A stretch of 64,000 bases of DNA from positions 372,001 through 436,000 of the forward strand of contig NZ_JAJSEC010000002.1 of the NCBI RefSeq assembly GCF_021272185.1. The letters are read 5' to 3'. The translations under genes and the position numbers were made by a program. The notes under the pieces were generated by a model. It saw nothing but the letters and a program-made list of their open reading frames with translations, did no database searches and was not told the DNA's origin. The stretch comes from Roseivivax sp. GX 12232 (GTDB lineage: Bacteria; Pseudomonadota; Alphaproteobacteria; Rhodobacterales; Rhodobacteraceae). Below, piece by piece: positions 25,971 through 41,089 of the stretch (positions within the stretch are counted from its first letter, which is position 1; every line of letters starts with the position of its first letter).

Positions 25971-26311
25971 TGGCGCGCAAGGGACACCCGGAAACCCCGG
26001 ATGGCCGCTATTTCGTCGCCAAATCGCGGCTCTGGCGCAAAACCAACCCCGGCCTCGACGCGGCGACCCGCCGCGCGGAAGTCAAATCCCTGATGCAGGC
26101 CCGCCGCGCCGTGGGCCAGGCGCAAACCCCCGAGGCAGAGACCGAGGCCCGCGCCGCCGTCGATGCCGCCAAACGCGCGCTCGGCGAACGCGGCCCGGTC
26201 TGGTGGCAGGACGGCGCCCCCGACGAAGGCGGCAAACACCCGCAGAACTCCAGCTACGCAAGCTGGTGGCAGACCCTCCCGCCCGAGGCCCGCGCCGCCG
26301 GCGAAAGCTGA
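25970..26311 (+). CDS. conserved hypothetical protein
   Basis: 113 residues, starting in the overlapping TGATG at the end of the ABC exporter gene, so probably co-translated. It reads GRYFVAKSRLWRKTNPGLD, a charged helical middle (MQARRAVGQAQTP…), then GERGPVWWQDGAPDEGG and a Trp-rich end. Similar small soluble proteins occur across Alpha- and Gammaproteobacteria and are sometimes labelled 'biopolymer transporter Tol', a name not supported by any domain I can see. Function unknown. Confidence 0.75.
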   Translation: MARKGHPETPDGRYFVAKSRLWRKTNPGLDAATRRAEVKSLMQARRAVGQAQTPEAETEARAAVDAAKRALGERGPVWWQDGAPDEGGKHPQNSSYASWWQTLPPEARAAGES

Positions 26312-26421
26312 CGCCTCCACCCTCACAGCGCCTGGGCGCAGCCCCTCAAGAAGCGCCACCCCTTGAGGCATGGCCGGGCCCAAAATACTCCCGGAGCGCG
26401 AGGGCAGCGCCCTCGCCCGCG

Positions 26422-26442
26422 GGCCGATCGGCACGATCGGCC
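26422..26442. repeat. perfect inverted repeat
   Basis: GGCCGATC (26422-26429) and GATCGGCC (26435-26442) around GGCAC. It lies in the gap between two convergent genes, 13 bases from a second hairpin. Confidence 0.6.
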
Positions 26443-26454
26443 TGCCAGAGAAGA

Positions 26455-26487
26455 CGGCCCCGCCACTTGGGCGGGGCCGACCTTCAA
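26455..26487 (-). terminator. probable terminator of bdhA
   Basis: CGGCCCCGCC (26455-26464) pairs perfectly over 10 bp with GGCGGGGCCG (26470-26479), loop ACTTG. On the minus strand a pyrimidine-rich tail (TCTTCTCT) follows. It lies 65 bases past the bdhA stop. Confidence 0.65.
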
Positions 26488-26543
26488 ATCAGCGACCAGT
26501 CACCAACCAACCCACCGGCAAACCCTCACCGGCACACCCATAT

Positions 26544-27317
26544 TCACAAGGCCGTCCAGCCCCCGTCGACCGAGATCGTCGTCCCGGTGATCTGGTCCGC
26601 CGCCGGCGAGCAGAGGAACACCGCCGTGCCGCCGATCTGGTCGACCGTGGCGAACTCCTTCGAGGGCTGGCGGTCGAGGATGACCTTCTCGGTCACCTCC
26701 TCCTCGGTCATGTCGTATTTCTTCGCGGTGTCGGGGATCTGCGCCTCGACCAGCGGCGTGCGCACGTAGCCCGGGCAGATCGCATTGGCGGTGATCGGCT
26801 CGCGCGCGGTCTCGAGCGCGACGGTCTTGGTCATGCCCACCACCCCGTGTTTGGCCGCGATATAGGCGGATTTGTAGGGCGAGGCGGTCAGCCCGTGCGC
26901 CGAGGCGACGTTGACCACCCGGCCCCAGCCCGCCTTGCGCATCAGGGGCAGCGCCGCGGCGGTGCAATGGAAGGCCGAGGACATGTTGATCGCGATGATC
27001 GCGTCCCATTTCTCGACCGGGAACTCGTCGATCGGCGCGACATGCTGGATGCCGGCGTTGTTGACCAGGATGTCGCAGGCCCCGGCCTCCTCGATCAGCC
27101 GGCGGCAGTCCTCGCCCTTCGACATGTCGGCCGAGATGTAGCGCGCGGTGACGCCGAACTCGGCGCCGATCTCCTCGGCCAGCTTGTGGTCCTCGTCCCG
27201 ATCGGTGAAGGAGTTCAGCACCACGTCGGCGCCGGCGCCCGCCAGCGCCCGCGCGACGCCCAGCCCGATGCCGGAATTGGAGCCGGTGATGACGGCGGTC
27301 TTGCCCTTGAGGTTCAT
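26544..27317 (-). CDS. bdhA: 3-hydroxybutyrate dehydrogenase
   Basis: NAD-dependent short-chain dehydrogenase interconverting 3-hydroxybutyrate and acetoacetate, used in polyhydroxybutyrate turnover. 257 residues from ATG 27317 with GGAGAG upstream. Cofactor site TGSNSGIG (11-18), NNAG (87-90), catalytic S139, Y152 and K156 (YIAAK), and the family-typical C-terminus ITGTTISVDGGWTAL. The features LNSF and QHVAPIDEFP match bacterial BdhA rather than FabG. A predicted promoter followed by an intrinsic terminator lies upstream at 27433-27544, so expression may be attenuated. Confidence 0.92.
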   Translation of the reverse strand: MNLKGKTAVITGSNSGIGLGVARALAGAGADVVLNSFTDRDEDHKLAEEIGAEFGVTARYISADMSKGEDCRRLIEEAGACDILVNNAGIQHVAPIDEFPVEKWDAIIAINMSSAFHCTAAALPLMRKAGWGRVVNVASAHGLTASPYKSAYIAAKHGVVGMTKTVALETAREPITANAICPGYVRTPLVEAQIPDTAKKYDMTEEEVTEKVILDRQPSKEFATVDQIGGTAVFLCSPAADQITGTTISVDGGWTAL

Positions 27318-27428
27318 CTGGTAGGTCTCTCCTGCTCTCTCGCGGCGCCGGGCGTCCCGGCGCGATGCTGCAACTGCGAGACTATCACCCGAGACCGGGG
27401 GCGGCTTCCACCCGCCGGGGAAGCGCGC

Positions 27429-27510
27429 GACCAAAAAAAAACGCCGGCACGAGGCCGGCGTTCAGTTATTGAGGCAGGTTTCATACAGGCAAGAAACCTA
27501 TCGAGCAGTG
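27429..27510 (-). ncRNA. candidate small RNA, or terminated leader of bdhA
   Basis: About 80 bases between a predicted minus-strand promoter (27516-27544) and a strong intrinsic terminator. The transcript would fold into stem 1, AGGTTTC/GAAACCT (27476-27482 with 27493-27499 on the plus strand, 10-base loop), then the terminator stem AACGCCGGC/GCCGGCGTT ending in about nine U. No start codon with a ribosome site was seen inside. It is divergent from the YejA-like gene and lies upstream of bdhA on the same strand, so both a free-standing sRNA and an attenuator leader are possible. Confidence 0.6.
27433..27462 (-). terminator. strong intrinsic terminator upstream of bdhA
   Basis: AACGCCGGC (27440-27448) pairs with GCCGGCGTT (27454-27462), loop ACGAG. 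An A9 run at 27433-27441 becomes T9 on the minus strand. No annotated gene ends here, so it must terminate a short transcript that starts to its right. Confidence 0.85.
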
Positions 27511-27515
27511 CCTTA

Positions 27516-27544
27516 GTGATAAGCGAGAATGACCTGACTGCCAA
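27516..27544 (-). promoter_or_regulatory. predicted sigma-70 promoter for the short RNA
   Basis: On the minus strand TTGGCA (27544-27539) and TATCAC (27521-27516) are separated by 17 bases; matches to TTGACA/TATAAT are 5/6 and 4/6. Predicted start near 27509. Confidence 0.5.
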
Positions 27545-27622
27545 GCTAAAAGTTTGATAACCCTCCGGCCCCCCGTTACTTTTGCATCACAAGCACGCGG
27601 GCAGAAAAGGACCGGGCAGATC

Positions 27623-29443
27623 ATGGCAGCACTTCACTTCCACAATTTCGCCCGGGGCGCGGCGCTGGCGCTTCTCGCCGGGCTGGCCGGGCCGGCCTTT
27701 GCCGAGCCGCAGCATGGCATCGCTATGTATGGCGATCCCGCGCTCCCACCGGATTTTGTGGCCCTGCCCTATGCCAACCCCGAGGCGCCCCAGGGCGGGC
27801 GCATCATCACCGCCGAGGTCGGCAGCTTCGACAGCCTCAACCCGCATATCCTCAAGGGCTCCACCCCCTGGGCGCTGCGCTTCCTGGCCTACGAGAGCCT
27901 GATGGGGCGGAACTGGAACGAACCCTTCTCGCTCTACGGTCTGCTGGCCGAATCGATCGAGGTGCCCGAGGACCGCTCCTGGGTCGAATTCACCCTGCGC
28001 GAGGAGGCCGCCTTCTCGGACGGCAGCCCGGTCACCGTCGAGGATGTCATGTGGTCCTACGAGACCCTCGGCACCGAGGGCCACCCGCGCTACCGCGGCG
28101 CCTGGGCCAAGGTCGAGACCATGGAGCAGACCGGCCCGCGCTCGCTGCGCTTCACCTTCAACGTCGAGGACCGCGAGCTGCCTCTGATCCTCGGGCTGCG
28201 CCCGATCCTGAAGAAGGCGCAATGGGCGGAGGCGGAGTTCACCGAATCGGGGCTCGACACCATCCCGCTCGGCACCGCGCCCTATGTGGTCTCGGATTTC
28301 GAGGCCGGACGGCATGTCACCCTGACCCGCAACCGCGACTACTGGGGCGACGATCTGCCCTTCATGAACGGCCAGGCCAATCTCGACGAGATCCGCATGG
28401 AGTTCTTCGGCGACGCCCAGGCGATGTTCGAGGCGCTGAAGGGCGGCATCATCAACTCTCACCGCGAGACCAACGCCGACAAATGGGAGACGCAATACGA
28501 CTTCCCCGCCGTCGAGCGCGGCGAGATCGTGAAATCGGTGATCCCGCACCAGCGCCCCTCGGGCATGATCGGCTTCGTGATGAACACCCGCCGCGACCAG
28601 TTCGACGACTGGCGGGTGCGCTCGGCCATGCTGCATGCCTTCAACTTCGAGTTCATCAACGACGCCATGACCGGCGGCCGGCAGGAGCGCATCACCTCCT
28701 ATTTCTCGAACTCGATCCTGGGCATGACCCCGGGGCCCGCCGAGGGCCGGGTGCGGGAGTATCTCGAACCCTATGCGGATGAGCTGCTGCCCGGCGCGCT
28801 CGAGGGCTACGAGCTGCCCAAGGGCGACGGCTCGGCGCGCAACCGCGGCAATATCCGCAAGGCCATCGGGCTCATGGAAGAGGCCGGCTATACCATCGAG
28901 GACGGCGTGATGACCGGCCCCGACGGCCAGCCCTTCAGCTTCGAGATCCTGCTCGCCCAGGGCAGCCAGGAGAACCAGGCGGTGATCGACATCTACGTCC
29001 AGGCGCTCGAGCGCATGGGCATCACGCCGAAGATCACCGCCATCGACCCCGCCCAGCACACCGAGCGGCTCAATGCCTTCGACTTCGACATGGCCTATTA
29101 CCAGCGCGGCCTGTCGCTCTCGCCCGGCAACGAGCAGAAGCTCTATTTCGGCGCCGAGGCGGCCGACCAGGAGGGCTCGCGCAACCTCATGGGCGTGAAG
29201 AGCGCCGCGGTCGACGGGCTGATCGACGAGATGCTGAACGCCGGCTCGACCGATGATTTCATCGCCGCGACCCAGGCGCTCGACCGGGTGCTGACGACGG
29301 GGCGCTACGTGATCCCGGTCTACCAGTGGAACGTCAGCCGCATCGCCCATGCCAAGGAGCTGAGCTACCCCGAGACGGTGCCGATCTACGGCGACTGGTT
29401 CACCTGGCAGACCGACGTCTGGTGGTGGGACGAGAGCAAGTGA
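27623..29443 (+). CDS. YejA-like oligopeptide ABC transporter substrate-binding protein
   Basis: 606-residue family 5 extracellular solute-binding protein. The signal peptide ends near residue 25 (LAGPAFA before EPQHG). Mature motifs include GGRIITAEVGSFDSLNPHIL, WVEFTLREEAAFSDGSPVTVEDV and KKAQWAEAEF, typical of YejA/microcin C-type peptide-binding proteins. Related systems keep yejB-yejE-yejF beside yejA, but here both sides are non-coding, so this is an orphan unless the permease lies elsewhere. ATG 27623 was chosen because it begins the signal peptide. It is divergent from the short RNA and bdhA. Confidence 0.92.
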   Translation: MAALHFHNFARGAALALLAGLAGPAFAEPQHGIAMYGDPALPPDFVALPYANPEAPQGGRIITAEVGSFDSLNPHILKGSTPWALRFLAYESLMGRNWNEPFSLYGLLAESIEVPEDRSWVEFTLREEAAFSDGSPVTVEDVMWSYETLGTEGHPRYRGAWAKVETMEQTGPRSLRFTFNVEDRELPLILGLRPILKKAQWAEAEFTESGLDTIPLGTAPYVVSDFEAGRHVTLTRNRDYWGDDLPFMNGQANLDEIRMEFFGDAQAMFEALKGGIINSHRETNADKWETQYDFPAVERGEIVKSVIPHQRPSGMIGFVMNTRRDQFDDWRVRSAMLHAFNFEFINDAMTGGRQERITSYFSNSILGMTPGPAEGRVREYLEPYADELLPGALEGYELPKGDGSARNRGNIRKAIGLMEEAGYTIEDGVMTGPDGQPFSFEILLAQGSQENQAVIDIYVQALERMGITPKITAIDPAQHTERLNAFDFDMAYYQRGLSLSPGNEQKLYFGAEAADQEGSRNLMGVKSAAVDGLIDEMLNAGSTDDFIAATQALDRVLTTGRYVIPVYQWNVSRIAHAKELSYPETVPIYGDWFTWQTDVWWWDESK

Positions 29444-29704
29444 GCCTGCCGCCGGGGGTGATCCCGCGGAGGGTGAGAGCGTGGCGCGCCGGGCCGGCCT
29501 GGGAGGGGTGGCCCGGCGTGGTTCGTTTGGGGGGTGCGCGCGGGTGCGGCGGCGGCGTAATTCGACGCGCCGGAACATCATTCTCGGGGACGCTGACGCC
29601 TAACCTTGCGGGTGGGCGCCGAATTACCGAGAGTCCGGTGTTCCATACCGTGTCATCCAGAGACGCCTTCGGTGCAACAGACCACAGGTCACCGCCAAGC
29701 CCCC

Positions 29705-29957
29705 TCACACCCCGCACCAACAGAGGGCGCGCGCCGGACCGGGGGCCGGCGCTGCTGACCTCCGAGCGAGGCGCTTAATCCCAGCAAGGTCAGGACTAGA
29801 GGCAAACTAGGCGCGCCATCCCAAGGAGCGCCGGCCCAAGGGGCCGGTCCGGCGCGCGCCCGGCACCTTCGGTGCTATTCGGGCGCAAGGAGGTGCGCGG
29901 GGTGATTGGGTTCGGGAGACCTTAGAGGGCATGGGCGGTAAGGCGCGGTGCCGGGGC
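29705..29957 (+). repeat. structured intergenic repeat, copy A
   Basis: Core 29722-29890. The left arm GGGCGCGCGCCGG… (29725-29753) is the reverse complement of the right arm …CCGGCGCGCGCCC (29827-29861) over ~27 pairs, enclosing 73 bases with the motif GCAAGGTCAGGACTA. The right arm also forms its own hairpin CCGGCCC/GGGCCGG with loop AAG. After it comes GCACC-TTC-GGTGC (29863-29875) and ATTCGGGCGCAAG. Sequence similarity with copy B extends on both sides to the limits given. No open frame in it is credible. Confidence 0.85.
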
Positions 29958-29973
29958 GTGGCGCCGGCCCCCC

Positions 29974-30226
29974 TCACAACTCGCACCAACAGAGGGCGCG
30001 CGCCGGGCCGGGGGCCGGCGCTGCCGACATCCGAGCAATGAGATTTATCTCGCAAGGTCAGGACTAACGGCGAACTAAGCACGCCACACCAAGGAGCGCC
30101 GGCCCATCGGGCCGGTCCGGCGCGCGCCCGGCACCTTCGGTGCTATTCGGGCGCAAGGAGGCGCGTGGGGTGATTGGGTTCGGGAGACCTCGGAGGGCAT
30201 GGGCGGTAAGGCGCGATGCCGGAGCC
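29974..30226 (+). repeat. structured intergenic repeat, copy B
   Basis: Second copy in the same orientation, offset by 269 bases from copy A. Core 29991-30157; left arm 29994-30022, right arm 30095-30129, 72 bases between. One arm difference from copy A leaves a G:U-type pair, and the right-arm hairpin keeps its CCGGCCC/GGGCCGG stem while its loop changes to ATC. Together A and B fill most of the gap between the YejA-like and XRE-cupin genes. Confidence 0.85.
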
Positions 30227-30390
30227 TGCGAGCCCGCTTATTGTCTCAAAAAAGGCAGCATTTCCTTGGCTCTCAGGGTTTGGCCGGTGATCTGGATCAG
30301 TCACCCGATTACGCGCCTCCGTAGCCCCGGTGGGCCGCATCACCGACGGCAACGCTCCACCCGAACAACCCCGGCGCCCGCCCCCCCGCC

Positions 30391-31014
30391 TCACGCCAGC
30401 GCCGTCACCCAAAGGATCGTCGCATCGTCCTCGGAGACCGAGATCACGTTGTGCCCCATGGTCGCGTCGTAATAGGCGCTGTCGCCCCGGCGCATCTCGA
30501 TCGGCTCGTAGAACTCGGTGTAAAGCCGGATCACCCCGGTCAGCACGTAGAGGAACTCTTCCCCGTCGTGGCGCACCCAGCCGTCGAACTCCTCCATGGA
30601 GCGCGCCCGGATCCGCGCCTGGTAAGGCAGCATGGCCTTCTTGGTCAGCCCCTCGGCCAGCAGCACGTGCTCGTAGGTGGCCGTCGCCTGCGCCAGCCCC
30701 TGCCCGGCCTTGGCGCTCACCAGCCGGCCGTTGATCTGGTCGCGCTTCGGCGGCGTGAAGAGCTGCGGCACCGAGATCTGCAACCCCGTCGCCAGCTTCT
30801 TCAGCGCGTCGTAGGTCGGCGACATCTGCCCGTTCTCGATCTTCGAGAGCGTCGACCGCGCGAGCCCCGCCTGCCGGGCCGCCTGTTCCAGCGTCCAGTC
30901 GCGGGCCTTGCGCAGCTCGCGCACCCGCTCGCCAAGGTTCAGCGGCTCGCCGAAGGCATCGGCGCCGTTCTCCCGGGCGATCCGGATCAGGGTCCTGGGG
31001 TCTCTGTCGGACAT
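30391..31014 (-). CDS. XRE-family regulator with cupin domain
   Basis: 207 residues from ATG 31014. Helix-turn-helix at ~28-82 (LGERVRELRKARDWTLEQAA…LARSTLSKIENG) and a C-terminal cupin (~115-205; DGEEFLYVLTGVIRLYTEF, MRRGDSAYYDATMGHNVISV) that probably senses a small ligand. This HTH_3-cupin layout is typical of regulators of amino-acid, polyamine or aromatic metabolism (PuuR/SutR-like). No target gene is adjacent. The gap upstream, 31015-31380, holds no gene or motif that I can support, apart from the TTG start signals of the next gene. Confidence 0.9.
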   Translation of the reverse strand: MSDRDPRTLIRIARENGADAFGEPLNLGERVRELRKARDWTLEQAARQAGLARSTLSKIENGQMSPTYDALKKLATGLQISVPQLFTPPKRDQINGRLVSAKAGQGLAQATATYEHVLLAEGLTKKAMLPYQARIRARSMEEFDGWVRHDGEEFLYVLTGVIRLYTEFYEPIEMRRGDSAYYDATMGHNVISVSEDDATILWVTALA

Positions 31015-31380
31015 GACAAGGCTTCTATGGCGGCCACGGGAGGCTTGCAAGCGCGGCCGCATATCGCCTAGGGGCGCTCTATGCTGGCGATCCGTGACAC
31101 CTGCGCGCCCGGCGCGACGTCGATGCCTGTCCCCGGCCAAGCCGAGGCCCCTGCTCCCTGCATGGCCGCAGCACCGCGGCGGCCGCGGTGCTGCGGCCCC
31201 GCACCCGCGCCAAAACGGCCCGCGCCCAAAGCGTCACCACGCCACCCCAAACCCACCACCCCGCCGCCCAATCCCGGCACAAACCTTGTGCCCGCGGCCC
31301 CGGGGCCCATCTAATCGTCAAACCCCACGCCTGAAACGCGCGGGCCCGAGGGCCTGCCCGATCCCCCGAAAGGAGCCCTT

Positions 31381-32028
31381 TTGGCCAAGCTCGACATCTT
31401 CTCCGATCCGATCTGCCCCTGGTGCTACATCGGCAAGGCCTTTCTCGACCGCGCGCTCGAGGCCAACCACGACCACCCCTTCGAGATCGCCTGGCACCCC
31501 TTCCAGCTGAACCCCGACATGCCCGCCGAGGGCATGGACCGCCGCGCCTATCTCGAAGGCAAGTTCGGCGGCGAGGAAGGCGCGGTCCAGGCCTATATGC
31601 CGGTCGTCGAACGCGCCAAGGACGCCGGGCTCGACATCGACTTCGAGGCCATCGAGCGCACGCCCAACACGCTGGACGCGCATCGGCTGATCCACTGGGC
31701 CGGCATCGAGGGCCGCCAGACCGCGGCGGTCTCGGCGCTGTTCCGGGCCTATTTCAAGGAAGGCCGCGACATCGGCGCCCATGACGTGCTGGCCGATATC
31801 GCCGACCAGATCGAGATGGACGCCGCGGTGATCCACCGGCTCCTGGCCAGCGAGGCCGACCGCGAGGAGATCCAGAACCGCGACAAGGCCGCGCGCGACA
31901 TGGGGCTGAGCTCGGTGCCGACCTTCATCGTCGCGGGCCGCCACGCGGTGCCCGGCGCGCAGCCGCCGGAGCTCTGGGAAAAGGTCATCAGCGAGATCAA
32001 GTCCGGGGCGCTCGACGCCGCCGAGTGA
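31381..32028 (+). CDS. DsbA-family (FrnE-like) thiol oxidoreductase
   Basis: 215 residues starting at TTG 31381; AAGGAG (31370-31375) sits 5 bases upstream and no ATG fits. Active site CPWC (C12, C15) right at the N-terminus and cis-proline loop SSVPTF near residue 179, in the thioredoxin fold with helical insertion of the FrnE/2-hydroxychromene isomerase-like DsbA group. There is no signal peptide, so it is cytoplasmic. FrnE homologues act in disulfide exchange and oxidative stress; the partner is unknown. Confidence 0.9.
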   Translation: MAKLDIFSDPICPWCYIGKAFLDRALEANHDHPFEIAWHPFQLNPDMPAEGMDRRAYLEGKFGGEEGAVQAYMPVVERAKDAGLDIDFEAIERTPNTLDAHRLIHWAGIEGRQTAAVSALFRAYFKEGRDIGAHDVLADIADQIEMDAAVIHRLLASEADREEIQNRDKAARDMGLSSVPTFIVAGRHAVPGAQPPELWEKVISEIKSGALDAAE

Positions 32029-32085
32029 GCCTCGGCGCATCGGGCGGTCGCCCCGCCCGTCGCCCAACCTTGTCTCTACGAATTT

Positions 32086-32095
32086 CGGTATACCG
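32086..32095. promoter_or_regulatory. palindrome upstream of icd
   Basis: CGGTATACCG, a perfect 10-base palindrome 91 bases before icd in a locally AT-richer stretch. It could be an operator or part of the promoter; nothing ties it to a known factor. Confidence 0.3.
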
Positions 32096-32185
32096 CCGCA
32101 TACAACACTTCCCGTAGCGCCCGCGATGCGCTAGGGGAGGCCCCAGGCGATTCAGGCCCCACACCCGGCCCAGCGGAGCGAACCC

Positions 32186-33400
32186 ATGTCCAAGATCAAG
32201 GTAGAGAACCCCATCGTCGAGATGGATGGCGACGAGATGACCCGCATCATGTGGGCCTTCATCAAGGACAAGCTGATCACGCCCTACCTCGACCTCGACC
32301 TGCTCTATTACGACCTCGGCATCGAGGAACGCGACCGCACCGAGGACCAGGTGACCGTCGAGGCCGCCGAGAAGACCAAGGAGGTCGGCTGCGCGGTCAA
32401 ATGCGCCACGATCACCCCCGACGAGGCCCGGGTCGAGGAGTTCGGCCTGAAGAAGATGTGGCGCTCGCCCAACGGAACGATCCGCAACATCCTCGGCGGC
32501 GTGGTCTTCCGCGCGCCGATCATCTGCCGCAACGTGCCGCGCCTCGTGCCGGGCTGGACCCAGCCCATCGTGATCGGCCGCCACGCCTTCGGCGACCAGT
32601 ATCGCGCCACCGACTTCAAGTTCCCCGGCAAGGGCAAGCTCTCGATGAAATTCGTGGGCGAGGACGGCACGGTGATCGAGGAAGAGGTCTACGACGCCCC
32701 CGACGCCGGGGTCTTCATGGGCATGTACAACCTCGACGCCTCGATCCGCGACTTCGCGCGCGCCTCGCTGAACTACGGGCTGAACCTCGGCTGGCCGGTC
32801 TACCTCTCGACCAAGAACACCATCCTGAAGCAATACGACGGCCGCTTCATGGAGATCTTCCAGGAGGTCTATGAAGCCGAGTTCCGCGAGGCCTTCGAGG
32901 CCAAGGGCATCGAGTACCAGCACCGCCTGATCGACGACATGGTGGCCTGCGCGATGAAGTGGAACGGCGGCTTTGTCTGGGCAACCAAGAACTACGACGG
33001 CGACGTGCAGTCCGACACCGTGGCGCAGGGCTTCGGCTCGCTGGGGCTGATGACCTCGCAGCTGATGACGCCCGACGGCCAGATCGTCGAGGCCGAGGCC
33101 GCCCATGGCACCGTCACCCGCCACTACCGCCAGCACCAGGCGGGCGAGCAGACCTCGACCAACTCGATCGCCTCGATCTACGCCTGGACCGGCGGGCTGA
33201 AGCACCGCGCCAAGCTCGACGGCAACGCCGCGCTGCAGACCTTCGCCGAGACGCTGGAGCGGGTCGTGGTCGAGACCGTCGAGGCCGGCCATATGACCAA
33301 GGACCTGGCGCTGCTCGTCGGCCCCGACCAGGGCTGGCTGACCACCATGGGCTTCCTCGAGAAGGTCGACGAGAACCTGAACAATGCGCTGACGCTCTGA
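32186..33400 (+). CDS. icd: NADP-dependent isocitrate dehydrogenase
   Basis: Oxidative decarboxylation of isocitrate to 2-oxoglutarate in the TCA cycle. 404 residues of the homodimeric eukaryote-like type: [14 protein letters not shown] at the start, substrate-site SPNGTIRN (~93-100), [10 protein letters not shown] and the NADP site [14 protein letters not shown]. This form is usual in alphaproteobacteria, unlike the E. coli type. GGAG precedes the ATG. A GC hairpin with arms CACCCCGG (33416-33423) and CCGGGGTG (33437-33444) follows the stop but has no T-run. Confidence 0.97.
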
Positions 33401-33769
33401 GGCTGTGACGCGCGGCACCCCGGGCCGGAGGTCGGGCCGGGGTGGCGTGGTGCGTGTGGTTTAAGGGCGTGCTGAGGGGCACCTCGGTGTGAGTTGTGGG
33501 GCGTCCGGCTGTCGGGCGCTGTGATGGCTCTGGTGGCTGTGAGCGCGGCGCTTGCGCGGTGTCCCGAGGGAGCACCGAAGCCCGCGCTTTCACCGTCCCT
33601 GAGAGCCGCCCCTCTCCGCCAAAACCCAAGCGCCCGCCCTGCCCGGCTCCGCCGCACGCGCCCCGCACCGCCCAATTTCCGGGCGAATGCTGCGGCGCAG
33701 CGACGCGGGACCCCGGGGAATTGCCCCCGGGCCCTTGCCTTCTGAGCCCCGAGGCCCAGAACAGCGCCT
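33401..33769. other. intergenic region with no supported gene
   Basis: Apart from the hairpin just after icd I see no gene, RNA or repeat in these 369 bases. The short open frames here have no ribosome sites and read as Pro/Arg/Ala-rich GC noise. Confidence 0.5.
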
Positions 33770-34390
33770 ATGATCCTGCTCGAGACACCCCCCGCCGACC
33801 GGCACACGCTGGCCGAAGACATCCAGGGCATGATGATCGGCTGCACGCTGGTCGCGCTCTCGATCCAGTTCCTGCGCGCCTCGGAGCTGATCACCGGCCA
33901 GATCGCCGGCCTTGCGCTGGTGGTCTCCTATCCGACCGGCTGGTCCTTCGGCATGGTCTTCTTCGTGCTGAACCTGCCCTTCTACGTGCTGGCGATCCGC
34001 AAGATGGGCTGGATCTTCACGGTGAAGAACTTCATCGCGGTGACCACCATGTCGGTCATGGCCGACCTGATGCCGCTGGTGCTGACAATCGAGCCGCTGC
34101 ACCCGGCGGTCGGCGCGAGCCTCTTCGGGCTCTGCGCGGGCATGGGGCTTCTGGGGCTCTTCCGCCACGGCGCGACGCTGGGCGGCGTGGGCATCGTGGC
34201 GCTCTGGCTGCAGGACCGGCGCGGCATCCCGGCAGGCAACACGCAGCTCGCCTTCGACCTTTGCGTCTTCACGCTGGCGATCTTCCTCTTCTCCTACGCC
34301 CAGGTGCTCTGGTCGCTCCTCGGCGCGGTGATCCTGAACGCGATCATCACCATCAACCACCGCCGCGACCGCTACATCGCCCGCTCCTGA
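33770..34390 (+). CDS. YitT/YczE-like integral membrane protein
   Basis: 206 residues with five to six hydrophobic helices. The pattern MMIGCTLVALSIQFLRASELITGQIAGLALVVSYPTGWSFG is that of the YitT family (DUF161): the short N-terminal cytosolic piece, TGQIAGLAL near a helix end, and GMVFFVLNLPFYVLAIRKMG. The family has unknown function. It lies directly upstream of the TPP-riboswitch operon but is separated from it by a terminator-like hairpin, so it is probably not thiamine-regulated. Confidence 0.8.
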   Translation: MILLETPPADRHTLAEDIQGMMIGCTLVALSIQFLRASELITGQIAGLALVVSYPTGWSFGMVFFVLNLPFYVLAIRKMGWIFTVKNFIAVTTMSVMADLMPLVLTIEPLHPAVGASLFGLCAGMGLLGLFRHGATLGGVGIVALWLQDRRGIPAGNTQLAFDLCVFTLAIFLFSYAQVLWSLLGAVILNAIITINHRRDRYIARS

Positions 34391-34412
34391 GCGGGCCGCG
34401 CGGGGGATTTTT

Positions 34413-34438
34413 CCTCCCCGAGGGGTGAGAATTTTTTT
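34413..34438 (+). terminator. weak intrinsic terminator after the YitT-like gene
   Basis: CCTCCCC opposite GGGGTGAG forms an imperfect hairpin at 34413-34429, followed by ATTTTTTT (34431-34438). The T-run is convincing, the stem less so. Confidence 0.5.
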
Positions 34439-34611
34439 GAAGCGCGTGGGGCCGAAGGCGCTCCGCGCGCTTCATTCTTTGCGCGAATTATGAACCGCAA
34501 ATAACTGAAATAAATACCTTTTATGCGACACCTCATCCACCACAGAGCCACGCAATCCCGCGCCCAAAATCCACGCATTGACACCGGCGCGCTGCCGTCC
34601 CAACCTGCCGC

Positions 34612-34704
34612 CCACAACCAGGGGTGCCCCGACGAGGGGCTGAGATGCGCGGGTCCCGCGCGAACCCTTCAAAGCTGATCTGGGTCATGCCAGCGGAGCG
34701 AGGT
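34612..34704 (+). promoter_or_regulatory. TPP riboswitch (THI element)
   Basis: Conserved aptamer parts appear in order: ACCAGGGGTGCC (34618-34629), GGCTGAGA (34638-34645), a GCGCGGG/CCGCGC hairpin (P3a), ACCCTT (34664-34669), CTGATCTGGGTCATGCCAGCG, and GGAGCGAGG at the 3' end. It senses thiamine pyrophosphate. The putative Shine-Dalgarno GAGG (34700-34703) is inside the aptamer's 3' part and the ykoF ATG is at 34710, so ligand binding probably blocks translation directly, without a separate expression platform. Confidence 0.96.
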
Positions 34705-34709
34705 ACAGC

Positions 34710-35321
34710 ATGTTCATAGGCGCGCAGGTGTCGCTTTATCCGATGACGTCCGATTTCGTCGGCGTCATCGAAACCGGGCTCGAGGGCCTGTCCCCCTATC
34801 GCGAGAAACTGAGGATCGAGACCGACGACATGTCGACGCTCATGGTCGGCGCGCCGGAGCCGCTCCTCGATGCGATCCGCGATCTTTTTGCCGCCGCCGC
34901 GCGCCGGCCGGAACATGTGACCATGCATGTCACCCTCTCGCGCGGCTGCCCCGGAGAGCCCGACGACCCCAGTTGCCGCTGCGAGACGCTGACCGAGGCG
35001 CAGCACTTGCCGCTCGCCACCCGACAGACCCGCGCCCTGGAGGCCGTCGCCGCGGCGCCCGAGACCGGGGTCACCATCGACGTGCAGTTCTCGCTCTACG
35101 TGCTGGGCCAGGACGGCCATATGGACGAGATCTACGGCTGCATCGACTTTCTGAAGTCCTCGGGCACCTTCCTGAAGGCCAAGAACTTCTGCACCCGGCT
35201 CCGGGGCGACGCGGGCGCGGTCTTCGAGACGCTGCGCCAGGCTTTCCTGCGCTTCGGCCCGGCCGAGGGGCATGTGACCATCGACCTCACCGCCTCGGCC
35301 AATTCGCCCAGCCTGAGCTGA
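34710..35321 (+). CDS. ykoF: YkoF-family thiamine/HMP-binding protein
   Basis: 203 residues with two tandem YkoF ferredoxin-like domains (FIGAQVSLYPM…YREKLRIETDDMSTLMVG at the start; IDVQFSLYVLGQDGHMDEIYGCIDFLKSSG in the second half). B. subtilis YkoF binds thiamine or its hydroxymethylpyrimidine (HMP) precursor and belongs to a thiamine-regulated uptake operon. The TPP riboswitch directly upstream and the thiXZY transporter downstream support a precursor-scavenging role. No signal peptide, so cytoplasmic. Confidence 0.92.
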   Translation: MFIGAQVSLYPMTSDFVGVIETGLEGLSPYREKLRIETDDMSTLMVGAPEPLLDAIRDLFAAAARRPEHVTMHVTLSRGCPGEPDDPSCRCETLTEAQHLPLATRQTRALEAVAAAPETGVTIDVQFSLYVLGQDGHMDEIYGCIDFLKSSGTFLKAKNFCTRLRGDAGAVFETLRQAFLRFGPAEGHVTIDLTASANSPSLS

Positions 35322-35393
35322 TCCGCGCCGCATAAGCCCCCGGGCCCCGTCGCGGGCCCCGGGAGGCCCTGCCGCGCGGCCCGGAGGTCGCCC

Positions 35394-36161
35394 ATGTCGC
35401 TTGTCCACCGCATCGCCCCGGCGCTGTTCTGCGCCGCGCTCCTGCTTCTCGGCTGGGAGGTTTATTGCACCCGCGCCGGGGTCTCGCCCTTGGTGCTGCC
35501 GCCGCCGAGCGGGGTCCTGCGCGCGCTGCAGGTCGAACGCGCCGAGATCCTGCGCCACGCGCAGAGCACGCTGACCGTGGCGGCCTTGGGCTTCATCCTC
35601 TCGGTGAGCTTCGCCTTCCTGACCTCCGTCGCGCTTTATTTCACACCGCTCCTGCGGCGCGGGCTCATGCCGCTTCTGGTGGCGAGCCAGACCGTGCCGC
35701 TGGTGGCGCTGGCGCCCCTGATGATCCTCTGGTTCGGCTTCGGGCTCCTGCCCAAGGTGCTGCTGGTCATCCTGGTGACCTTCTTCCCGATCCTGGTGAG
35801 CCTTCTTTCGGGCTATCGCGCCGCCCCCCGGCCCTTCACCGAGCTTCTGACCGCCATGGGCGCGGGCCGGCTCTCGGTCTTCCGCCGGGGGATCCTGCCC
35901 GCCGCCCGGCCCAGCTTTTTCGCCGGGCTCCGCATCTCGGCGACCTATGCCATCGTGGCGACGATCTTCGCGGAATACGCAGGCGCCCGCAGCGGCATCG
36001 GGATCTACATCCTGACCGCCAAGAACACCTTCCGCGCCGACCTGGTGCTGGCCGGCGTTGTGGTCTCGGCCTGCCTGACGCTGATGCTTCTGGGCACGCT
36101 GGCGGGGATCGACCGGCTGACCGCGCGGCGCTTCCGGGAGGCCCCGCATGCTGCGCATTGA
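35394..36161 (+). CDS. thiX: thiamine-precursor ABC transporter permease
   Basis: 255-residue BPD-type permease with about six membrane helices. The ABC-interaction loop (~150-175: LLTAMGAGRLSVFRRGILPAARPSFFAGLR) is of the SsuC/ThiX class. Context, namely the TPP riboswitch and ykoF upstream with an ATPase and THI5-like binding protein downstream, makes it the permease of a pyrimidine-precursor importer rather than a sulfonate or nitrate system. Its end overlaps the ATPase gene by 14 bases. Confidence 0.9.
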   Translation: MSLVHRIAPALFCAALLLLGWEVYCTRAGVSPLVLPPPSGVLRALQVERAEILRHAQSTLTVAALGFILSVSFAFLTSVALYFTPLLRRGLMPLLVASQTVPLVALAPLMILWFGFGLLPKVLLVILVTFFPILVSLLSGYRAAPRPFTELLTAMGAGRLSVFRRGILPAARPSFFAGLRISATYAIVATIFAEYAGARSGIGIYILTAKNTFRADLVLAGVVVSACLTLMLLGTLAGIDRLTARRFREAPHAAH

Positions 36162-36882
36162 GGGTCTGACGATCACCGCAGGCACCGCGCCCCTGGTCGA
36201 GGGTCTGGGCGTCGATCTGCCCGAGGGCCAGCTCTGTTGCCTGATCGGCCCCTCGGGCTGCGGCAAGACCTCGGTCATCAAGTGGCTCGCGGGCATCCTG
36301 CCGCCGGGGCTTGGCGCCCAAGGCCGGGTCACCCGCGACGGCGCGCCCATGGCGCGGCCCGATCCGGCGCTGGCCTATCAGCCGCAGGCCGATGCGCTCT
36401 TTCCCTGGCTGACCGTAGCCGAGAACGCCGGGCTCGGCCTCGAGATCGCGGGCCGGAGCCGCCGCGCCGCCCGCGCAGCCGTGGCACCGCTTTTCGCGCC
36501 CTTCGGGCTTGCCGGGACCGAGGATCTCTTTCCCGGCCAGCTCTCGGGCGGGATGCGCCAGCGCGCGGCCTTCCTGCGCACCATCGTGCAGGACAGCCGC
36601 TACGTGCTTCTCGACGAACCCTTCTCGGCGCTCGACGCGGTGACCCGGCTGCGCATGCAGGACTGGCTCTGCGCGCGGCTCGCCGAGACGCCGCGCGGCG
36701 TGCTCATGGTCACCCATGACCTGCACGAGTCCACCCAGATGGCCGACCGCATCCTCGTCATGTCGGCCCGGCCCGGCCGGATTGTCGCCGACATCCCCCT
36801 GACCACCCCGCGCGCCGCGCGCAGCGAGGCTGCCCTGGCCGAGACGCGCATGACGCTGAAATCCCTGCTATTGGAGGACTGA
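36148..36882 (+). CDS. thiZ: thiamine-precursor ABC transporter ATPase
   Basis: 244 residues with Walker A GPSGCGKTS (~31-39), Q-loop QPQADALFPW, signature LSGGMRQR (~132-139), Walker B VLLLDEPF and switch His in VTHD. It belongs to the SsuB/TauB/ThiZ group. The start lies inside the thiX end, so translation is coupled. Substrate inferred from the operon. Confidence 0.92.
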   Translation: MLRIEGLTITAGTAPLVEGLGVDLPEGQLCCLIGPSGCGKTSVIKWLAGILPPGLGAQGRVTRDGAPMARPDPALAYQPQADALFPWLTVAENAGLGLEIAGRSRRAARAAVAPLFAPFGLAGTEDLFPGQLSGGMRQRAAFLRTIVQDSRYVLLDEPFSALDAVTRLRMQDWLCARLAETPRGVLMVTHDLHESTQMADRILVMSARPGRIVADIPLTTPRAARSEAALAETRMTLKSLLLED

Positions 36883-36886
36883 CCCC

Positions 36887-37861
36887 ATGATCCGATCCCT
36901 GATGACCAGCGCGCTTCTGGCCCTGCCCGCGAGCGCCAGCGCCGAAGACCTGAGCATCGCGCTCGACTGGACGCTCAACACCAACCACGTCGGCCTGATC
37001 GCCGCCCGCGACCGGGGCCTTTACGAGGCCGCGGGCCTCGAGGTCGAGATCCTGCCTTATTCCGACACCAGCTCGACCGCGCTTCTGGCCGCGGGGGTGG
37101 CGGATTTTGCCTATATGACCTCGCTCGGGTTCATGAGCGCGCGGGCCTCGGGCGCCGGGATCACCGCGCTCTGGGCGACCATGCAGCAGGAGACCGGGCG
37201 GCTGGTCTACAACAGCGACAACCGCGAGATTTCCACGCCCGCCGATCTTGAGGGCAAGACCTACGCGGGCTTCGGCAGCGCCTGGGAGGACGCGCTGATC
37301 TCGACCATGATCGAACACGACGGCGGCACGGCGGAGTATGACACGGTGACGCTTGGCACCGGCGCCTACGAGGCGCTGGCCACGGGTGCGGTGGATTTCA
37401 CCCTCGAAGTCGCCACCTGGGAAGGCGTGAACAGCGAGCTTCTGGGCCGCGATCAGTCGTCCTTTGCCTATGCCGATTACGGTATCCCCGAGCAGCAGGG
37501 CGGCTATATCGGCACGCGGTCGGACTATCTGGCCGAGGCGCCCGCGCTGGTGGCACGCTTCATGCGCGCGACGCAGGAGGGTTATGCCTGGGCGGCGCGG
37601 CACCCCGAGGAGGCGGCGGAGCTGCTCCTGGCGGCGGGCGATTTCCCCAACCCCGCGCTGGTGCGGGGCTCCATGCAGGCCATCGTCGCGGGAGACTACC
37701 TGACCGACGGAGAGACCCCGGTGGGGTCGATCGACCGCGAGCGGTTCTCGGGCATGGCGCAGTTTCTCTACCAGAGCGGGGTGCTGAAGGACGGCTCGGG
37801 CGAGGTCTTGGGCTGGCCCGGGGATGTGTCGGGCTGGGTGGACCAGGGGTGGATGGAATAG
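36887..37861 (+). CDS. thiY: thiamine-precursor (HMP-type) substrate-binding protein
   Basis: 324 residues with a signal peptide ending PASASA near residue 20. The mature start LSIALDWTLNTNHVGLIAARDRG is the NMT1/THI5-like pattern of ThiY, which binds pyrimidine precursors such as formylaminopyrimidine or HMP. The residues between ~85 and 280 follow the two-lobed periplasmic-binding fold. Last gene of the riboswitch operon. The gap that follows to 38386 contains repeat copy C. Confidence 0.92.
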   Translation: MIRSLMTSALLALPASASAEDLSIALDWTLNTNHVGLIAARDRGLYEAAGLEVEILPYSDTSSTALLAAGVADFAYMTSLGFMSARASGAGITALWATMQQETGRLVYNSDNREISTPADLEGKTYAGFGSAWEDALISTMIEHDGGTAEYDTVTLGTGAYEALATGAVDFTLEVATWEGVNSELLGRDQSSFAYADYGIPEQQGGYIGTRSDYLAEAPALVARFMRATQEGYAWAARHPEEAAELLLAAGDFPNPALVRGSMQAIVAGDYLTDGETPVGSIDRERFSGMAQFLYQSGVLKDGSGEVLGWPGDVSGWVDQGWME

Positions 37862-38035
37862 TGAGGGGGGTGGCCCCGCGCTCAGGCGGCGATGCGCGTT
37901 GCTGGTAACCGCTCCGACGCGGCGGTGCTCGGACGGCGGTAGGCTATGGTTCGTCGCCGGTTCGGTCGCCCCTTTTGCCACGGTCCGACCAGCGCTTGCC
38001 TTCCTGTCTCACGCAGCCCGTGCCACCACCCACGT

Positions 38036-38222
38036 CGCAACCCCTCACAGCAGAGGGCGCGCGCCGGACCGGGGGCCTGCGCTGCTGACTGCTGAGCGAG
38101 GCGCTTTATCCATGCAAGGTCAGGACTAGGGTTGATCTATGCACGCCACCACAAGGAGCGCCGGCCCATCGGGCCGGTCCGGCGCGCGCCCGGCACCTTC
38201 GGTGCTATTCGGGCGCAAGAGG
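38036..38222 (+). repeat. structured intergenic repeat, copy C
   Basis: Third copy, same orientation, 8 kb from A and B. Core 38052-38220; left arm 38055-38083, right arm 38157-38191, 73 bases between, with the shared GCAAGGTCAGGACTAG motif, the CCGGCCC-ATC-GGGCCGG hairpin and the GCACC-TTC-GGTGC hairpin. Homology with A/B stops near GGGCGCAAG, which marks the natural right boundary. One arm base differs (GGCCTGCGCT for GGCCGGCGCT). Confidence 0.85.
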
Positions 38223-38386
38223 GTGCGGGGTGGAGAGCGGGGGGTCGCAACCCCAACGGATCGGCGTCGCGCTGCCACCCACACACCCTCCCCCTCAGCC
38301 CCATCCCGCCGCCGCCTCGGCTTCGCTCTTTCGCCACGCTCGCGCGGCCAGTAAGGAGAGCGGACCACGACAACACGAGGGGTTCC

Positions 38387-40741
38387 ATGGATCGCGCCAC
38401 CCGCATCAACACCACGATCGGCTCGGATATCGGCGCCAGCGCGGCGCAGGTCGCAGCGGCGGTGAAACTCTTGGACGAAGGCGCCACGGTGCCCTTCGTG
38501 GCGCGCTACCGCAAGGAGGCCACGGGCGGGCTCGACGACACCCAGCTGCGGCGGCTCGCCGACCGGCTGGGCTACCTGCGCGAGATGGACGAGCGCCGCG
38601 ACGCCATCGTGAAATCCATCCGCGAGCAGGACAAGCTGACCGAGGAGCTCTCGCGCGCGATCGCCAAGGCCGAGACCAAGGCCGAGCTCGAGGACATCTA
38701 CCTGCCCTACAAGCCCAAGCGCCGCACCAAGGCGATGATCGCGCGGGAAAACGGGCTGGAACCCTTGCGCGACGCGATCCTCGCCAACCGCGGCACCCCG
38801 CCCGAGACCCTGGCCGAGGGCTATCTCTCCGAGGCCGTGCCGAGCGTGAAGGAGGCGCTCGCCGGGGCCCGCGACATCATCGCCGAGGAGCTGGCGGAAA
38901 ACGCGGGCCTCGTGGGCGACCTGCGCGGCTTCCTGCAGAAAGAGGCGCTGGTCAGTGCCAAGGTGGTCAAGGGCCAGGAAGAGGCTGGCGCCAAGTTCTC
39001 GGATTATTTCGACCATGCCGAGCCCTGGGCACGGGTGCCCTCGCACCGGGCGCTGGCGATGATGCGCGCCTGGAAGGAAGGCGTCGTGCAGCTCGAGATC
39101 GGCCCCGAGCCCGAGACCGGCCAGCCGCGCTGCGAGGCGATGATCGCCGCGCGGCTCGACCTCAAGGGCGGCGGGCCGGGCGACGCTTGGCTGCGCGAGG
39201 TGGCGGCCTGGGTCTGGCGGGTGAAGCTCTCCTCGACGATGATGCTGGACCTCATGGCCGAGCTGCGCGCCCGCGCCCACGAGGAGGCCATCGCGGTCTT
39301 CGCCCGCAACCTGCGCGACCTCCTGCTGGCCGCGCCCGCGGGCGCCCGACCGACGCTGGGGCTCGACCCGGGCATCCGCACCGGGGTCAAGGCGGCGGTG
39401 GTCGACGCCACGGGCAAGCTGGTGGCGACCGAGACGCTTTATCCCTTCCAGCCGAAACGCGACATGCGGGGCGCCCAGGCGGCGATCCTCGACATGATCG
39501 CGCGGCACGGCATCCAGCTCATCGCCATCGGCAACGGCACCGCCTCGCGGGAGACCGAGAAGATGGTCGCCGACACGCTGGCGATGCTGCCGCGCGACGT
39601 GCAGAAGCCCACCAAGGTGGTGGTCAGCGAGGCCGGCGCTTCGGTCTATTCCGCCTCGGAGCTTGCGGCGCGGGAGTTTCCCGATCTCGACGTCTCGCTG
39701 CGTGGCGCGGTCTCCATCGCGCGGCGGCTGCAGGATCCCCTGGCCGAACTGGTGAAGATCGAGCCCAAGAGCATCGGCGTCGGCCAGTATCAGCACGACG
39801 TCGACCAGCACCGGCTGGCGCGCTCGCTGGCCGCCGTGGTCGAGGACGCGGTGAACGCGGTGGGCGTCGATCTCAACACCGCCTCGGCGCCGCTTCTGGC
39901 GCATGTCTCGGGGCTGGGCCCCGGGCTCGCCGAGGCCATCGTCGCCCATCGCGACAGCCATGGCGCCTTTGCCGCGCGCAAGGACCTGCTGAAGGTGACG
40001 CGGCTCGGGCCTCGCGCCTTCGAGCAATGCGCGGGCTTCCTGCGCATCCGCGACGGCGGCGAGCCGCTCGACGCCTCGGCGGTGCACCCGGAAGCCTATG
40101 ACCTTGCCCGCCGGATCGTCGCCGCCTGCGGCCGCGACCTGCGCGCGATCCAGTCCGACCCGAAGGCGCTGCAGGCGCTGTCGCCCGAGGAGTTCGCCGA
40201 CGACCGCTTCGGCCTGCCGACGGTGCGCGACATCCTCTCGGAGCTGGAAAAGCCCGGCCGCGACCCGCGCCCCTCGTTCAAGACCGCGACCTTCGCCGAG
40301 GGCGTGGAAGAGATCACCGACCTCAAGCCCGGGATGCGGCTCGAGGGCACGGTGACCAACGTCGCGGCCTTCGGGGCCTTCGTCGATGTGGGCGTGCACC
40401 AGGACGGGCTGGTGCATGTCAGCCAGCTCGCCGACCGCTTCGTGAAGGACCCCCACGAGGTGGTGAAGGCCGGCGACGTGGTGCAGGTCCGGGTGACCGA
40501 GGTCGACGTGCCGCGCAAGCGCATCGGGCTCTCGATGCGCAAGGACGGCGGCGCCTCGGCGCGCGAGGACCGCACCGCCCGCGAGGCGCAGCGTCCCGGT
40601 GGCGGCAAGCCTGGGCCCGGCAAGGGCAAGGGCGCGCGCGGTCCCAAGGGCGGCGGCAAATCCGGCGGCCAGCCGCGCGGCGGGTCGGATCAGACCGGTT
40701 CGCTGGGTGCGGCGCTGATGGATGCGATGAAGAAGCGCTGA
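38387..40741 (+). CDS. tex: Tex-family RNA-binding transcription accessory protein
   Basis: 784 residues from ATG 38387 (GAGGGG upstream; the frame is open further but runs through repeat copy C). Order: helical Tex N-domain, YqgF-like RNase H fold (TLGLDPGIRTGVKAAVVD, ~320), helix-hairpin-helix (~500-560) and an S1 RNA-binding domain (~645-715, GMRLEGTVTNVAAFGAFVDVG). A Gly/Lys/Pro-rich basic tail (~730-784) extends the protein and likely aids nucleic-acid binding. Tex/Spt6-like proteins act in transcription and stress tolerance. Confidence 0.95.
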   Translation: MDRATRINTTIGSDIGASAAQVAAAVKLLDEGATVPFVARYRKEATGGLDDTQLRRLADRLGYLREMDERRDAIVKSIREQDKLTEELSRAIAKAETKAELEDIYLPYKPKRRTKAMIARENGLEPLRDAILANRGTPPETLAEGYLSEAVPSVKEALAGARDIIAEELAENAGLVGDLRGFLQKEALVSAKVVKGQEEAGAKFSDYFDHAEPWARVPSHRALAMMRAWKEGVVQLEIGPEPETGQPRCEAMIAARLDLKGGGPGDAWLREVAAWVWRVKLSSTMMLDLMAELRARAHEEAIAVFARNLRDLLLAAPAGARPTLGLDPGIRTGVKAAVVDATGKLVATETLYPFQPKRDMRGAQAAILDMIARHGIQLIAIGNGTASRETEKMVADTLAMLPRDVQKPTKVVVSEAGASVYSASELAAREFPDLDVSLRGAVSIARRLQDPLAELVKIEPKSIGVGQYQHDVDQHRLARSLAAVVEDAVNAVGVDLNTASAPLLAHVSGLGPGLAEAIVAHRDSHGAFAARKDLLKVTRLGPRAFEQCAGFLRIRDGGEPLDASAVHPEAYDLARRIVAACGRDLRAIQSDPKALQALSPEEFADDRFGLPTVRDILSELEKPGRDPRPSFKTATFAEGVEEITDLKPGMRLEGTVTNVAAFGAFVDVGVHQDGLVHVSQLADRFVKDPHEVVKAGDVVQVRVTEVDVPRKRIGLSMRKDGGASAREDRTAREAQRPGGGKPGPGKGKGARGPKGGGKSGGQPRGGSDQTGSLGAALMDAMKKR

Positions 40742-40960
40742 GGCTTGGCCGGGCGGCGTGACGCGGCGCCGCCCGGTGGGTCTCCCGGGCAGCGGCGCGC
40801 TTCATGTATTGCGCGAGAAAGCACCCTTAACGCGTTGATTTTGAATTATTAGCCAAAGAATCGCGCTCTCACCGCGCTCTTCTTTGGCCTCTTATTCGGC
40901 CCTTCCAAAGCGACCGCTCCGCGCCAACCCGGGCGCTCCATTCCACATCCCAACCCACGA

Positions 40961-40984
40961 AAAAAGGGCCCCCGCGGGGGCCCT
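40961..40984 (-). terminator. intrinsic terminator of nrdJ
   Basis: AGGGCCCCCGCGGGGGCCCT (40965-40984) is a perfect palindrome; the A-run at 40960-40965 becomes U6 on the minus strand. It lies about 105 bases beyond the nrdJ stop. The remaining tex-nrdJ gap (40742-40960) holds only a small inverted motif near 40795. Confidence 0.85.
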
Positions 40985-41089
40985 GTTCAGTCGTGCCGGT
41001 CGGGCTCACTCTTGGTCACCGCCCAAAGTTCTCTGCCTGCGGCCCGGCCGGGGTCCGAGGGCAGGGTCACCCGCCCCCGGAGAGTATGA

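Follow-up and report, generated by a model that had tools for sequence, protein, structure and literature searches.

A structured repeat of Rhodobacteraceae and its possible place at the edge of gene-exchange slots

Three copies with a common fold

The stretch analyzed here, which we call the window, comprises 64,000 nucleotides of Roseivivax sp. GX 12232 (contig NZ_JAJSEC010000002.1, positions 372,001 to 436,000) and contains three copies of an intergenic repeat, at 29705-29957, 29974-30226 and 38036-38222, exactly where a first-pass annotation made from the letters alone had placed them. The core, put there at about 170 bases, measures 168-169 bases, from CAGAGGGCG to GGGCGCAAG. Our covariance model of it, R1, has 163 positions (seeded with five copies from this genome and six from relatives) and matches the window at 29722-29884, 29991-30152 and 38052-38214, always on the plus strand and with 159-161 bits. 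The parts listed in the first-pass annotation are all found in the window copies: the inverted arms, a 72-73-base center with GCAAGGTCAGGACTA, and the hairpins CCGGCCC-loop-GGGCCGG and GCACC-TTC-GGTGC.

Copy 1 (29722-29884, +, 160.5 bits, with a conserved core that extends to 29889) illustrates the organization of the element. Its 5' arm consists of an outer helix, P1, at 29725-29742, whose partner in the right arm lies at 29844-29861, and an inner helix, P2, at 29743-29753, for which the predicted fold and covariation place the partner at 29827-29837; across 57 aligned copies, 97.6% of P1 cells and 90.3% of P2 cells are paired. Between the arms, at 29771-29779, is the unpaired motif GCGCTTAAT; most copies have GCGCTTTAT or a near form of it in the center, and the alignment shows the motif kept across genera. 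The 3' hairpin, at 29858-29884, is made of GCCCG, the upper stem GCACC-TTC-GGTGC, a bulge TATT and a tail CGGGC, and overlaps the end of the P1 partner, which pairs with this tail as well. In other species the hairpin is the side of the element that joins foreign genes, as the breaks described below lie at it or in it. Copy 2 (29991-30152, +, 158.6 bits) is tandem to copy 1 and, with 89% identity over 253 bases, the two are by their sequence a tandem duplication. Copy 3 (38052-38214, +, 160.0 bits) lies between the genes at 36887-37861 (+) and starting near 38387 (+).

In the predicted fold of each core the two arms pair with each other around an asymmetric bulge, and each arm also has an imperfect hairpin of its own. 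For each of the three cores, none of 200 dinucleotide shuffles folded as well (z -3.6, -6.0 and -3.9); a longer, 263-base stretch of copy 2 was beaten by 2 of 200. Two features go beyond the first-pass account: the right-arm hairpin is an alternative to pairing between the arms in the predicted fold, and the 3' tail CGGGC can pair with the right arm too.

A kept stem with a changing right-arm loop had been taken as a sign of selection on structure. The loop does vary, its two variable bases being AG in 72, TC in 50 and TA in 8 of 130 unique copies from the Roseivivax genome, and strong covariation in two sets of copies bears the conclusion out. In alignment A2 (57 matches), 94.2% of cells are paired and 25 of 34 pairs have changed on both sides; compensated cells number 266, against 76.2 in shuffles (0 of 500 as high) and at most 56 in slid controls. 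Twenty fresh copies (A3) gave 90.5% paired cells and 57 compensated cells, against 15.9 when shuffled. The fitting of both alignments to the model favors the model's own structure, a concern limited by the slid controls and by an unfitted MAFFT alignment (A1, with 10 of 33 pairs changed on both sides). The A2 counts include its five final rows (one short copy and four antisense matches), which were excluded elsewhere, leaving 52 copies. Among these, a right-arm 4-mer is complementary to the 3' tail in 49, including 21 of the 23 in which the arm departs from its commonest form, and to the 5' arm in 47. The right arm thus covaries with both, and therefore has two alternative partners.

Two extensions of the structure were rejected. 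The flanks of 130 copies from the Roseivivax genome pair no better than swapped partners (-29.1 vs -29.5), and the strongest signals within the center of these copies come from near neighbors, except for the known hairpin pair 146:152. We also observed short forms of about 65 bases that keep the arms and 3' hairpin and have lost the center (L104:14700-14764, L132:3477-3540 and L069:1408-1471).

Genome-wide copies and family range

The repeat is not confined to the three cores; a search for further copies found it genome-wide. A DNA search that scored 40 of 258 candidates gave at least 57 matches, of which 52 are full-length, and the covariance model gave at least 150 copies, all with 146 bits or more. 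A sample of 79 evenly spaced 20-kb stretches, together 1.58 of the 4.12 Mb, contained 95 model matches above 60 bits, two of these being short copies without the center, and 88 matches to a sequence profile; the extrapolated total is about 230-250 copies. Positions relative to genes were obtained for 87 of the profile matches. Every one of these is intergenic, and by our own gene calls coding sequence makes up 87% of the sample. The gaps that hold them are convergent in 29 cases, co-directional in 48 and divergent in 10, against 107, 217 and 108 among 432 reference gaps of at least 150 bases, so that divergent gaps are avoided (10 of 87 vs 108 of 432, p 0.005). Within co-directional gaps the copy runs with the genes in 32 of 48 cases (p 0.03), and pairs of copies less than 1 kb apart always share an orientation (15 of 15). 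Element-holding gaps are also longer, with a median of 511 vs 249 bases after the element itself is subtracted. As a separate observation, the 88 sampled copies have flanks in which the nearest 50 or so bases are rich in C upstream and in G downstream, a pattern reversed beyond 100 bases. Among copies in this genome the stems are near-invariant and the center varies in short words (CC/GG, GG/TT, AG/TC), whose association in 130 copies weakens with distance and is weak at long range; this fading suggests recombination between copies. The center words CTTTATGG and TCATTGCTC are present in another species too.

The element might instead act as a cis-acting RNA near gene ends, in 3'-end processing, termination or insulation, with insulation making foreign neighbors tolerable. 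The avoidance of divergent gaps and the TTCG-type loops would suit such a role, as would the excess of G.U over A.C in A2 (35:2 on 27 pairs; 37:12 on 29 pairs, including P2 pairs 4 and 11), but this strand signal fails in the fresh set (12:8) and in the Roseivivax copies (25:26). Orientation, moreover, is weakly biased toward the genes and unfixed relative to the foreign genes, and copies are absent from many relatives; overall, we consider this account unlikely. Of the earlier suggestion of an mRNA 3'-end element, what survives is that divergent gaps are avoided; in co-directional gaps no more than 32 of 48 copies run with the genes, and in the copies inspected no T-run follows the hairpin.

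A model match was found in 51 of 100 Rhodobacteraceae genomes, one per genus, and in a second draw from the family in 94 of 149 genomes and 51 of 73 genera. Within the genus, 7 of 9 genomes matched, with copy numbers from 0 to at least 150; the Roseivivax genome analyzed here is counted in each of these three draws. Of 115 genomes drawn class-wide, only two matched, this genome and one other of the same family. A 39-base pattern of the element occurs, among the matches listed, in Wenxinia saemankumensis, Roseicyclus mahoneyensis, Allosediminivita pacifica and Antarcticimicrobium luteum; it had no exact match in viral contigs, the pattern covering only some subfamilies, and blastn with one copy from the Roseivivax genome found no match among PLSDB plasmids. 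By comparison of orthologous positions, the window gap at 26303-26546 has no element and the corresponding gap of genomes G005 and G007 has one.

This variability bears on the label "MITE-like" (MITE, miniature inverted-repeat transposable element) given in the first-pass annotation, and on the wider possibility that the element is a plain selfish repeat, similar to MITEs or to repetitive extragenic palindromes (REPs), which is moved by a transposase and meets foreign genes in shared permissive places with no mechanical link to them. A copy number that ranges within one genus from 0 to at least 150, together with solo intergenic copies, is what such a repeat would produce, and to this extent the label stands. 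It is not supported by target-site duplications: direct repeats of at least 6 bases flank 7 of 130 copies from the Roseivivax genome and 7 of 66 from elsewhere, against expectations of 7.1 and 6.7. Nor does it fit an element that is strictly sized, asymmetric because of its extra 3' hairpin, and equipped with a third covarying strand.

The element's strand is biased with respect to GC skew, and this too would be compatible with a selfish repeat. Of the 73 clusters in the Roseivivax genome, 46 have the element on the C-rich strand; where the skew is clear, the figure is 28 of 40. The corresponding figures are 18 of 25 for genome G017 and 47 of 83 for G250, each among the matches listed (25 of 31 and 83 of 103, respectively); genes are near 50%. 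The same bias, as seen in the clear-skew clusters and in G017, could point to a polar chromosome-organizing site that is read in replication or segregation. However, the bias is modest, and weak in G250, and copies are absent from many relatives, making such a site very improbable; we rejected replication polarity as the main story for the modesty of the bias. It would fit single-strand exposure in replication, and proves nothing.

Single foreign genes beside the element

Because the link between the element and foreign genes was noticed post hoc, while we were seeking empty sites, we counted it twice, the second time in a fresh set of loci. A neighbor was scored as AT-rich if a 300-base stretch within 1 kb of the element lay at least 10 points below the locus median, and genomes with up to seven copies were classed as low-copy. 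In the first count, of 45 loci of other genomes, such a neighbor was present at 16 of 22 low-copy loci vs 4 of 23 loci from higher-copy genomes; in the Roseivivax genome the figures were 8 of 84 copies and 11.5% of 1580 random positions. The fresh low-copy loci, some of them orthologous to one another or to earlier loci, gave 12 of 20, with p 3e-7 against the 11.5%, a baseline taken from the Roseivivax genome only. With pyrG loci outside the genus as an alternative baseline (2 of 13 AT-rich), Fisher p is 0.013. A separate Fisher test at pyrG that used a by-eye split (G018, with a drop of 0.17, not counted as AT-rich) is not relied on. The AT-rich neighbor in low-copy genomes is mostly a single foreign gene, which often sits between the 3' hairpin and a core gene. 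We regard the tie of the element to exchanged single genes in these genomes as well supported. It weighs against a plain selfish repeat, which is in turn favored by AT-rich neighbors not being in excess in high-copy genomes.

The same sites, which we call slots, recur in different genera, often with core genes as neighbors (pyrG, rplW/rplB, pheS, gyrB). In the S10 operon the slot between rplW and rplB is seen with both flanks at five loci; at a sixth, L293, the rplB flank is seen. The pheS site has both its flanks at five loci, uvrB was the neighbor at three and gyrB at two, and thyX, rpoD and argH occurred at single loci. The Rfam L2-Alphaproteobacteria leader of rplB lies just beyond the foreign gene, or cargo, at L296:4871-4948 and L304:2024-2091; this slot therefore lies inside a ribosomal protein operon, ahead of the leader. 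At pheS the distance from the 3' end of the element to the conserved pheS side is 15 (L298), 267, about 510, 575 and 595 bases in five genomes, implying that the slot exists with and without cargo. L298 has no AT-rich stretch, and an element that is nearly insert-free there is also what a selfish repeat would leave.

The 3' end of pyrG was compared among congeners, in which an AT-rich gene lies between the pyrG stop codon and the element. An AT-richer insert follows the stop in 8 of 9 congeners, and by eye its open reading frames (ORFs) are not the same from one to another; the element is present in 7 of 9, that of G007 being partial (46 bits). G008 has neither insert nor element, and retains apparently only the right half of the 3' hairpin. 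At the other 21 pyrG loci there was no model match (at one of them the sequence ends 132 bases after pyrG). In some cases the start codon of the cargo touches or overlaps the stop codon of pyrG. By eye, the last codons of pyrG (L237-L259) tend to TTGGT(T/G) in genomes with the insert and to CTGGTC or CTCGTC in those without; insertion may renew the end of this gene. The pyrG slot of the Roseivivax genome (L244, C22, the same as L124:16382-17666) holds, besides a gene encoding an HSDR_N domain, an element of another subfamily (111.6 bits).

Comparison of close relatives resolves the exchange to the base: flanks and element are kept, cargo genes differ, and the break falls at or inside the 3' hairpin. 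Between L296 and L299 the left flank plus element are 95.6% identical (the element itself 85-92%), the break comes 3 bases past the element, and similarity resumes upstream of rplB; the cargo is an AbiP2-type reverse transcriptase gene in one and two different genes in the other. L304 and L305 have outer flanks that are 98.5% and 96.5% identical, an element block at 86.6% and unmatched cargo, with the break inside the 3' hairpin. Lower identity in the element block points to a joint replacement of element and cargo here. At pheS, too, cargo differs between L294 and L295. A transposase-moved selfish repeat would not explain breaks located exactly at the element. A further small ORF, better conserved, lies between rplW and the element at L305:2430-2950 and in the matching part of L304.

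What the cargo encodes was surveyed in 30 element-adjoining ORFs, a selection from all such ORFs. With PADLOC, five gave strong specific matches (Drt5, 4e-195; AbiP2, 4e-188; TIR-TM, 2e-61 and 2e-42; AbiJ, 3e-8) and one further ORF a weak match; among ten ordinary window ORFs used as controls, two matched (a general helix-turn-helix protein and an ABC ATPase). Twelve of the 30 reached the curated Pfam cut-off, examples being Abi_C, RVT_1, DUF4062, TNT, HSDR_N, TIR_2, DUF900 and pentapeptide repeats, and 13 had no Pfam match at E up to 0.01.

Gene exchange and comparison with known systems

The reading that we prefer, and to which we give about an even chance, is that a structured, nonautonomous element of Rhodobacteraceae forms the fixed edge, or attachment side, of gene-exchange slots and has been amplified solo in this genome. 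In its favor are the AT-rich neighbors of low-copy loci, the breaks in L296/L299 and L304/L305, the comparisons at pheS and pyrG, the covariation of the helices and of the right arm with two partners, and the five strong defense matches. One strand would fold, pairing the right arm either with the 5' arm or with the 3' tail; an enzyme acting in trans would join genes at the 3' hairpin; and homologous recombination, through transformation or gene transfer agents, would move whole slots between strains. In some genomes, including this one, the element has multiplied alone to give hundreds of solo intergenic copies, the three window copies among them.

Several observations weigh against this reading. 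At two of the three uvrB loci the cargo is on the element's far side, not on the one facing uvrB. At pyrG the type and orientation of the element vary between species, and it is therefore not always the constant part. Of 28 low-copy cases, 19 have the AT-rich side 3' of the element (first count, 9 of 16; fresh loci, 10 of 12), with a two-sided binomial p of about 0.09 overall and about 0.04 for the fresh loci. Twenty-five of the 30 surveyed ORFs lack a strong defense match. Candidate enzymes are also missing: the Roseivivax genome has no match to PF01797 (Y1_Tnp), which a control search found in 5 of 14 genomes, and none to RVT_1, and the integron integrase TIGR02249 exceeds its curated cut-off in 0 of 100 family genomes. 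Weak general tyrosine-recombinase matches occur in all 100 of these and in 14 of 14 controls. Finally, plain homologous recombination between conserved flanks alone could swap the cargo with the element unused.

A bolder form of the preferred reading sees an integrase-less cassette system of Rhodobacteraceae, in which genes, some of them for phage defense, are exchanged at the 3' hairpin and the element multiplies itself; we offer this tentatively, as a possibility on the weaker side. The plain selfish repeat, with the evidence on its two sides given above, seems to us doubtful. Neither the MITE reading nor the mRNA 3'-end reading predicts a tie to swapped foreign genes.

We conclude that this is a real, structured repeat that is widespread in one family; the exchange mechanism is a hypothesis. 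If it is true, orphan defense genes could be found by looking beside the element, single foreign genes inside essential operons such as rplW-rplB would be easier to explain, and an undescribed recombination or transposition activity would be indicated. Even the bare repeat, present in 94 of 149 sampled genomes and without an Rfam match, would be new to annotation as far as the open literature shows.

The first-pass annotation had allowed for identity to a described repeat family. Against this, the element had no Rfam match at E up to 1, either in window positions 25000-42000 or in seven relatives' loci, and we found no account of the repeat in the open literature, a body that leaves subscription journals and preprints mostly outside. 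In the same part of the window the sole match above the gathering score was a TPP riboswitch (34610-34718, 73.5 bits), upstream of an apparent transport operon. A retro-element was rejected for the lack of RVT_1 in the Roseivivax genome.

Like MITEs, as the consulted parts of two accounts describe them (PMC10969869, PMC5896051), the element is short and noncoding, with inverted arms and many copies. Unlike them, it has no target-site duplication signal and has a third covarying strand outside the arms; no parent transposon turned up, although no search was aimed at a larger element with the same ends. With REPs and bacterial interspersed mosaic elements (BIMEs), in the part of PMC3733652 drawn on here, it shares its character as an intergenic, high-copy, imperfect palindrome with inverted hairpin pairs. 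Those compared are REPs with a REP-associated tyrosine transposase (RAYT) and REPs tagged with GTAG or CGTC, the CGTC families being said to have no dedicated transposase; our element differs in its length of 163 bases, against 20-40, its extra 3' hairpin and its link to cargo. In the 17-base stretch at each end, GTAG is found in 4 of 72 copies and CGTC in 8 of 72, and with tags this rare and no Y1 transposase in the Roseivivax genome we rejected a RAYT/REP system. STAXI, a pseudoknot repeat of Enterobacteriales with UUCG loops, for which a role in single-stranded DNA has been considered (PMC2864571, in part), is similarly a repeated structured motif with a UUCG-type loop; the present element differs from it in belonging to Rhodobacteraceae and in having no Rfam match.

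Integrons offer another parallel. The attC site of integrons is a folded site, conserved in structure, that stands beside single exchangeable gene cassettes, many of them for defense. Our element is likewise folded and conserved in structure, and lies beside single swappable genes, some of them for defense. It is not itself an attC site, as the end pair RYYYAAC and GTTRRRY is present in 0 of 72 copies and TIGR02249 stays below its cut-off in the 100 family genomes, and it departs from integrons in its unfixed orientation to the cargo and in the dispersal of solo copies over the genome. By these tests the element is neither an integron site nor a tagged REP, and it belongs to no Rfam family; what it behaves like is the boundary of a cassette.

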